Source: Candidatus Treponema equi (GTDB taxonomy: Bacteria; Spirochaetota; Spirochaetia; Treponematales; Treponemataceae). From it: a stretch of 36,011 nt of DNA. The notes under the pieces were generated by a model. It worked only from the letters and a program-made list of their open reading frames with translations, was not told the DNA's origin and ran no database searches. Made by a program: the position numbers and the translations under genes. Below, piece by piece: positions 28,711-29,719 of the stretch (within the stretch, counting starts at the first letter, position 1; every line of letters starts with the position of its first letter). The stretch is taken from NCBI GenBank assembly GCA_018064785.1, contig JAGHUO010000061.1:1-36011 (forward strand), given 5' to 3'.

Positions 28711-28741
28711 AAAATAAAAAAGGGGGCTTCAAGGGCCCCCC
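28711..28741 (-). terminator. Intrinsic terminator between FecR-like gene 2 and the cyclase
   Basis: On the minus strand GGGGGGCCCTTGAAGCCCCC is followed by TTTTTTATTTTTAT. The G/C-rich stem plus U-run is a strong terminator 23 nt upstream of the cyclase ATG. Partial read-through would make the cyclase the low-level product of the unit. Confidence 0.8.
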
Positions 28742-28760: not shown

Positions 28761-29168
28761 CTACTCTTCCCAGAGAACATCAGATTTTGCTTCTGATGCG
28801 CGGGATGAAGCTGTTGCCGCACCCTTGCTGCTCTTTCCTGCAGCCTGAGCAATGTCACCCTTAGTAACCTTTGAACCTATCTTAACGCCGTTCTTAGATT
28901 TTCCGGAAACACAAAGCTCAGAGATTTTTCCCTTTTTCATAGGCTTGATGGAAAAATCCTTGCCATCATGGTTAACAACAAGAGTTGAATTAAGACCGGT
29001 GCTTACACTGACATCAGAATCAATGCTCATCCCTGTCTTTATATCAACAGTCTTACCTTTAGAATCCACACAGGTAACATTACCTGTCACTTCCTTAACT
29101 GTCCAGCTTTCAGCAAAGGCAAATACCCCTGCCACAAGCATCGCAATCATGAACACATTTTTTTTCAT
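28761..29168 (-). CDS. Small exported FecR-like protein 2
   Basis: 135 residues. A signal peptide (MKKNVFMIAMLVAGVFAFA) precedes a beta-rich region (about 22-80) with the FecR-like pattern VTGNV...DIKTGMSIDSDVSVSTGLNSTLVVNHDGKDFSIKP. The C-terminal part is basic and ends KSSKGAATASSRASEAKSDVLWEE, almost the same tail as its neighbour. It is a tandem paralogue of the gene just upstream (32-nt gap) and lies upstream of the CHASE2 cyclase. It is probably periplasmic. Function is unknown; a partner or ligand sensor for CHASE2 is inference. A weak GGAG lies 11 nt before the start. Confidence 0.7.
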   Translation of the reverse strand: MKKNVFMIAMLVAGVFAFAESWTVKEVTGNVTCVDSKGKTVDIKTGMSIDSDVSVSTGLNSTLVVNHDGKDFSIKPMKKGKISELCVSGKSKNGVKIGSKVTKGDIAQAAGKSSKGAATASSRASEAKSDVLWEE

Positions 29169-29200
29169 CTTTCTTTACTCTCCACCAGAATTAAAAAAGA

Positions 29201-29611
29201 TTACTCGTCCCAGTCCAATTCTGCCTTAGCTTCAGAAGCACGTGAAGAAGCGGTTGCCTGCCCCTTGCTTGACTTGTCAGACTTTGCGGCAACTGAATCG
29301 TTCTTGAGAGAACCCTTCTTGATTGACTTTGCTGTCTTTGAAGCTTCACCAACAAGCTTGTCCAATGCACCATTCTGCATTGCCTTGATTGTAATCTTGT
29401 TGCTGCCATCAGCAACTACAAGAGTTGAGTTAAGAGCTGTCTTTACAACTGTAGCAGACGAGATCTTCTGTCCGTTCTCAACATCCTTCCAGGTACCTGG
29501 TTCTGCTTCATACTGAACCTTACCCTTGAACGAATCAACGACGTAAGCGTCTGCTGCAAAAAGAGACACAGCAGCAAATGCCATTGCGATAAAAGACATT
29601 ATCTTTTTCAT
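29201..29611 (-). CDS. Small exported FecR-like protein 1
   Basis: 136 residues. It has a signal peptide (MKKIMSFIAMAFAAVSLFA) and a FecR-like beta region (YVVDSFKGKVQYE...GTWKDVENGQKISSATVVKTALNSTLVV...NKITIKAMQNG, about 22-80). A Lys/Ser-rich segment follows, and the terminal block reads KSSKGQATASSRASEAKAELDWDE. It is a paralogue of the next gene; the shared VKTALNSTLVV-type core and the tail are the best conserved parts. A strong promoter (TTGATT-16-TATAAT) and AGGAGT ribosome binding site suggest high expression. It is probably periplasmic; the ligand is unknown. Confidence 0.72.
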   Translation of the reverse strand: MKKIMSFIAMAFAAVSLFAADAYVVDSFKGKVQYEAEPGTWKDVENGQKISSATVVKTALNSTLVVADGSNKITIKAMQNGALDKLVGEASKTAKSIKKGSLKNDSVAAKSDKSSKGQATASSRASEAKAELDWDE

Positions 29612-29691: not shown

Positions 29692-29719
29692 ATTATACAT
29701 AAAAAGTAGATGTAATCAA
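29692..29719 (-). promoter_or_regulatory. Promoter of the FecR-like/CHASE2 cyclase operon
   Basis: TTGATT (29714-29719), a 16-nt spacer, and a perfect TATAAT (29692-29697) on the minus strand, giving a leader of about 75 nt. Confidence 0.65.

Follow-up and report, generated by a model that had tools for sequence, protein, structure and literature searches.

A conserved C-terminal peptide of small exported Treponema proteins and its candidate role in an envelope relay to a CHASE2 cyclase

In Candidatus Treponema equi, two neighbouring small genes, here A and B, encode exported proteins that differ across most of their length and end in nearly the same peptide, raising the question of what keeps this peptide constant and what might read it. 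The genes lie on a stretch of 36,011 nucleotides (JAGHUO010000061.1), hereafter the window, which is one whole contig (C22) of a genome that is 71% complete. The earlier note had described them as neighbouring FecR-like paralogues sharing a C-terminal tail and an LNSTLVV core, and had joined them with the CHASE2 cyclase encoded downstream into an envelope-sensing cAMP module. Both open reading frames and their coordinates (Table 1) were confirmed, as were the near-identical tails, which agree at 18 of 24 residues, and the cores, which read TGLNSTLVV and TALNSTLVV in the two paralogues. A and B each begin like a signal peptide and continue with a compact beta domain, then a variable linker and finally the conserved C-terminal peptide.

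Table 1. Features of the window discussed in the text, with positions counted from its first nucleotide.
Feature	Position	Strand	Basis and remarks
CHASE2 adenylate/guanylate cyclase, 931 aa	25893..28688	(-)	Pfam; CHASE2 residues 14-340, cyclase domain 623-824
Intrinsic-terminator-like hairpin and T run, between A and cyclase	28721..28741	(-)	Pattern match; folding energy z -0.32, not unusual
Tailed small exported protein A, 135 aa	28761..29168	(-)	ORF; retention/FecR-like domain and C-terminal tail
Tail of A, KSSKGAATASSRASEAKSDVLWEE	28764..28835; core 28785-28817	(-)	
Tailed small exported protein B, 136 aa	29201..29611	(-)	ORF
Tail of B, KSSKGQATASSRASEAKAELDWDE	29204..29275; core 29225-29257	(-)	
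Folded beta domain and helix of B, residues ~22-95, LapA/RIN-retention-like	29327..29548	(-)	AF2, Foldseek
Sigma-70-like promoter match upstream of B	29692..29719	(-)	10/12 matches; such sites no commoner than in shuffles
Large repeat protein, 2009 aa	29875..35904	(-)	ORF; 5' end probably cut by contig end

A is 41% identical to B by protein comparison. With the tail left aside the identity is 36% over 101 aligned residues (E 1.7e-12), a similarity from which we conclude that the two are paralogues. Ten of the 18 identical tail residues are encoded by different codons, indicating that the protein sequence rather than the DNA is conserved and ruling out recent DNA copying as the source of the tail in this pair. 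The genes are separated by 32 bases, and A from the cyclase gene by 72 bases; the hairpin within this second gap would uncouple expression of A from that of the cyclase. Apart from the cyclase, the neighbours of A and B in the window are tpiA, secG, a ptsN-like gene and the gene for the large repeat protein. The latter protein ends in a transmembrane segment and a basic RRRRQK stretch, weakly LPXTG/PEP-CTERM-like, and has weak OmpL47-type and LPXTG-like matches; its family is present in eight of the fetched regions and is encoded upstream of tailed genes in many related loci. Tandem duplication of the tailed gene, like that in the window, was also observed at loci L126, L141, L147, L148, L150 and L154.

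The tail consensus common to A and B is KSSKG[A/Q]ATASSRASEAKxxxxWxE. A degenerate DNA pattern for its core, ATASSRASEAK, gave 27 matches in 23 of 274 genomes of the family, confined to one genus, and the reversed pattern gave none in the same 274 genomes. All but one of the 27 matches form the C-terminal end of a small protein, with a length of 135-162 aa in almost every case. At E<=0.1, a 21-position tail profile gave matches in 49 of the 294 genomes searched in the order, the weakest of these matches probably arising by chance; two families account for most of them, and almost all sit in ORFs of ~115-175 aa. In a phylum-wide draw of genomes the tail was not found outside the order, and when ~85,000 species were scanned for the exact pattern, every credible carrier was a spirochaete; six non-spirochaete matches were rejected because they sit in short or out-of-context frames. 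Exact copies of the tail occur in two cultured species, Treponema ruminis (RU1) and T. zioleckii (kT3), as well as in numerous assemblies of rumen Treponema. Searching the genome and its relatives thus bore out the earlier observation, with orthologues keeping the tail across Treponematales and a third tailed paralogue in the same genome (C144:8284-8691(-), locus L130), which adjoins two outer-membrane-type genes and has no cyclase visible there.

When 39 tailed proteins were aligned, R124 and A125 did not vary at all, and the eight columns TASSRASE formed the most conserved window. Entropy was 0.45 bits in the tail core vs 1.83 in the domain and 2.3 in the linker, a figure that is partly circular because many loci were collected via the tail itself. 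The same tail decapeptide is encoded by 38 DNA spellings. Tail and linker are predicted to be disordered in the AF2 model of B, and strong conservation combined with disorder at a C-terminus typically marks a linear recognition motif. Taken together, the top conservation, the predicted disorder and the differing codons at 10 of 18 residues indicate that the tail is real and under selection. The reversed-pattern control and the shuffling of loop sequences ruled out that the motif arises by chance or from low complexity, and a general sorting tail is unlikely given the few carriers per genome.

The description of A and B as FecR-like was not borne out as stated. Neither protein matches Pfam FecR (PF04773), FecR is absent from the families listed for the 39 tailed members, and no FecI sigma factor or TonB receptor FecA is encoded among the window neighbours. 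A homologous, larger protein of 317 aa from the same genome (L004, G000:C145) does match PF04773 (9e-11), which lends the label indirect support. The domain gave a match of A to NF033682, the LapA retention module, at 3e-6, and 27 of the 39 tailed proteins matched this model at E<=1e-3 (best 7.6e-8, 32.7 bits), all of them below its curated cut-off of 50 bits. In the AF2 model of B, the beta domain comprises residues 21-90 (pLDDT 93-96) with a helix at 83-95. Its best Foldseek match, and the only confident structural one, was 5ix9 (prob 1.00, TMt 0.71, 70 columns, E 0.13), the structure of a cell-surface anchoring domain. As modelled, the domain of A and B looks like a LapA/RIN retention domain. 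The LapG site [T/A/P]AAG was not present behind the domain, where the core reads TASSRAS, or TAASRAS in some members.

The gene downstream of A encodes, as the earlier note had stated, a CHASE2 domain (PF05226; 8e-30, 104.7 bits) combined with a class III cyclase domain (PF00211; 4e-20, 72.6 bits), as judged by Pfam. CHASE2 serves as a sensor domain in many bacteria, with an input known in few cases. Among the 39 fetched regions that encode a tailed protein, 34 also hold a cyclase of the same family, usually directly beside the tailed gene, and a cyclase-first search independent of the tail gave 28 of 30 loci with a tailed protein within <=1.5 kb (27 counted by script, L303 by reading). The exceptions were L125, where the tailed gene lies ~6 kb from the cyclase on the same contig, and L304, where the cyclase is of a more distant subtype. 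The expected co-occurrence therefore held from both directions for one cyclase subtype. The order of tailed and cyclase genes varies, being codirectional or convergent, and their adjacency is kept. For cyclases of a second subtype, the neighbours at a distance of 1.8-3.0 kb are larger FecR proteins that lack the tail (7/7 same-contig cases), so treponemes have two FecR/CHASE2 modules, only one of which uses the tail. At loci of the second module (G000:C145, L004 and the second-subtype loci), other envelope genes lie in between.

CHASE2 itself was detected in 256 of 294 order genomes and is thus nearly universal, which makes co-occurrence at the genome level little informative and adjacency and subtype more so; the lack of a CHASE2 match in G032, a 1.1-Mb genome of the family, is likewise uninformative. 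The tail-linked cyclase at L140:5145-7873(-) (G190) reads as two ORFs of 400 aa each if the sequence is taken at face value. The tailed loci L130, L133 and L146 are without a cyclase, and the small relative at L044 has neither an adjacent cyclase nor a tail.

A further family accompanies the tail. Fifteen of the 39 tailed regions hold a pair of proteins of ~450-700 aa each, the second of which is predicted by AF2 to start with an 8-stranded barrel of OmpA/Ail type, to which a beta domain and then a transglutaminase-like domain are joined. The barrel, with OmpA/NspA/Ail as best structural matches, dominated the structure search, and a profile search of PDB sequences returned no credible match. 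Cys406 and His432 of the transglutaminase-like domain are invariant in 13/13 sequences and Glu466 is conserved in >90%; the Pfam transglutaminase matches were weak (E 4e-4 to 6e-3, below cut-off), and the assignment, based on these matches and the Cys/His conservation, is a weak one. A profile of the family matched in 26/26 genomes with tail or motif vs 0/4 complete genomes without (Fisher 3.6e-5), the four negative genomes being few, hand-picked and possibly related. The pair lay <20 kb from the tailed gene in the 21 same-contig cases tabulated and <500 bp from it in 10 of them; distances of 5-18 kb were seen where at least one gene intervenes, often for a large repeat protein like that of the window. 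At the cyclase-less loci L130, L133 and L146 the pair is next door. From genome to genome, the barrel/transglutaminase family tracks the tail no less closely than the cyclase. No such gene was seen in the window; because the contig ends inside the large upstream gene, the pair may just lie beyond its end, and the source genome does have it in C144 and at other places.

The motif also occurs on proteins unrelated to A and B. It lies inside alpha-2-macroglobulins (A2Ms) of G079, G199, G081 and G105 as TASSRAS and of G071 as SSRAS only. Bacterial alpha-2-macroglobulin bait regions are described as protease targets, and in a Treponema subgroup the motif sits where the bait lies, flanked by A2M_BRD and PF00207 (in the L094 protein between BRD at 1034-1189 and A2M at 1307-1395, and likewise in L091). 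It is carried by all five long-bait A2Ms seen (L091, L094, L093, L164 and L227) and was not found in A2M groups with short bait loops. Six of 16 loop sequences match the motif vs 0.0012 expected from shuffling, and several of the A2M copies have W at the same spacing. Proteins of VIT-vWA-TPR-DUF2135 architecture (L090:1922-4765, L092, L200, L209) carry the motif in a variable loop in G199, G081, G128 and G105, imperfectly in G081 and G105; this loop is fast-evolving and rich in Met, Ala and Glu. Occurrences in both A2M and VIT proteins are sporadic. In G239 (L143:8010-8462(-), C3), the tail ends an unrelated small exported protein encoded between housekeeping genes, where linker and tail were transferred together to a domain of different origin; this fusion is evidence that the tail is portable. 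Recent DNA copying between the A2M and the tail of G079 was ruled out by different core codons at 5 of 11 positions. The tail was not found inside barrel/transglutaminase, cyclase or large repeat proteins. The earlier note had weighed its module against the tail turning up on unrelated proteins without CHASE2 partners or lapsing in orthologues; the A2M, VIT and G239 carriers indeed have no adjacent CHASE2, although their genomes do have CHASE2 proteins, and in orthologues the tail is conserved.

Several known systems resemble parts of this arrangement. In Campylobacterota, the accessible part of the report describes a CHASE2 adenylate cyclase clustered with a FecR-domain outer-membrane protein, a TPR protein and a phosphodiesterase, proposed to act in one pathway (PMC9239204); the likeness lies in a CHASE2 cyclase beside FecR-like and outer-membrane/TPR proteins, but the other partner proteins differ and the accessible text mentions no conserved C-terminal tail. 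In Sinorhizobium meliloti, according to the available portions of two papers, the outer-membrane receptor NsrA signals to the inner-membrane cyclases CyaK and CyaD1/D2 and on to Clr, and SMc02177, a protein with a FecR domain, is among the Clr/cAMP targets and dispensable for signal perception (PMC7529298, PMC5498481). There too an outer-membrane protein relays a surface signal to inner-membrane cyclases, whereas no tailed adaptor or transglutaminase-like barrel is reported in those portions. In the Lap and Dvh systems, the transglutaminase-like protease LapG cuts just behind the retention domain of LapA (PMC13090378). Common to both cases is a retention domain of beta strands with a helix and then a linear site behind it, and a neighbouring gene for a transglutaminase-like enzyme, a putative one in the treponemes; the treponeme domain, however, sits on a 136-aa protein rather than a giant adhesin, its site is TASSRAS vs [T/A/P]AAG, its enzyme is fused to an outer-membrane barrel, and the neighbouring messenger protein is a nucleotide cyclase instead of a c-di-GMP receptor. 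With FecR proteins (PF04773), A and B share homology through the matching same-genome protein and an outer-membrane-coupled logic, but they have no direct Pfam match and no FecI/TonB receptor beside the window genes. Our literature searches found nothing joining FecR, CHASE2 and Treponema, nothing relevant on Treponema bait regions, and no bait-region use of a peptide common to another envelope system. FecR/OMP/CHASE2 clusters are already known from other bacteria, and the tail, its putative enzyme partner and the bait-loop reuse appear to be new.

We tentatively propose, with a probability of roughly 0.4, a relay from the outer-membrane enzyme via the tailed adaptor to the CHASE2 cyclase, with the tail as a portable recognition peptide for this putative partner. 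A and B would be periplasmic adaptors of such an outer-membrane-to-cAMP relay, their folded domain addressing the CHASE2 sensor in the inner membrane and their tail serving as a linear peptide read by the outer-membrane transglutaminase-like protein, either by docking or by LapG-type cleavage. A surface event would then alter the contact between adaptor and CHASE2 and change the cAMP level. The same partner would also recognize proteins that have borrowed the peptide, first among them the A2Ms, whose bait loop is sensitive to proteases. What the data establish is the anatomy of the proteins, their linkage, the conservation of the tail and its portability; the assignment of binding partners to domain and tail, the choice between a bound and a cleaved tail, and the course of the signal are inferred. 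The relay is favoured by the conservation and disorder of the tail, the cyclase adjacency in 28/30 loci, the enzyme co-occurrence in 26/26 genomes and the portability of the motif, as well as by cyclase-less tailed loci beside the pair and a gene order that varies while adjacency stays. It also draws on the invariant Cys406 and His432 within a barrel/beta/alpha-beta architecture, on the retention-domain fold, known members of which are cut behind the domain by LapG (PMC13090378), and on the precedents of NsrA (PMC7529298) and the Campylobacterota FecR-OMP/TPR/CHASE2 clusters (PMC9239204). Against it stand the absent [T/A/P]AAG site, the weak transglutaminase assignment, the few negative genomes, the terminator-like hairpin between A and the cyclase, and the pair not being seen in the window.

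The tail might instead dock directly on the periplasmic CHASE2 domain, with the folded domain as sensor or outer-membrane contact and the C144 protein acting in trans. This would fit the adjacency of tail and cyclase counted in both directions (34/39 and 28/30), the tail-less larger FecR proteins near the other cyclase subtype (7/7) and the cyclase-less, tail-less relative at L044. We nevertheless consider it rather unlikely, as orphan tailed loci adjoin the barrel/transglutaminase pair and not a cyclase, the A2M and VIT carriers lack a cyclase link, and CHASE2 (256/294) is far wider than the tail in the order. Those same A2Ms lend interest to a reading in which the tail is the cleavage site of a shared periplasmic protease, transglutaminase-like or other, and is cut off rather than held, the A2M bait acting as decoy or regulator. 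The motif at the bait position of all five long-bait A2Ms and of no other A2M group, the 6/16 loops against 0.0012 expected, and the LapA/LapG-like succession of retention-type domain, helix and site (PMC13090378) would all agree with processing. We hold it unlikely, however, since conservation over ~18 residues including W and the acidic end exceeds that of a typical cleavage site, the exact [T/A/P]AAG signature is absent, and the A2M and VIT occurrences are sporadic.

Portability, a mostly C-terminal position, the grafted linker and tail of G239 and a Ser/Thr-rich core would suit a signal for sorting, retention or modification (envelope anchoring, glycosylation or crosslinking) unrelated to signalling. 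Internal copies in A2M and VIT proteins, carriers too few per genome for a general sorting signal and the tight linkage to one cyclase subtype make this explanation very improbable. A bolder version of the relay, which we regard as a long shot, makes the peptide a common input, constitutive in the adaptors and conditional in the A2M and VIT-vWA proteins, where it would report cleavage by foreign proteases or unfolding to the enzyme/cyclase. If that were true, the A2M bait region would be a sensor, beyond a trap.

The module envisaged in the earlier note thus kept its cyclase link, with parallels in the Campylobacterota clusters as far as the accessible text describes them (PMC9239204), and lacked the outer-membrane enzyme family. 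For the tail itself, a common partner or a processing signal remains the right pair of options, and the reading needs to reach beyond a FecR/CHASE2 pair and take in a portable tag linked with that enzyme family. The reuse of the peptide in macroglobulin bait loops suggests, as an idea open to testing, that such regions might hold sequences recognized by envelope machinery of the same cell, and a near-invariant, short and synthesizable peptide offers a direct handle for finding a physical partner of the CHASE2 system.
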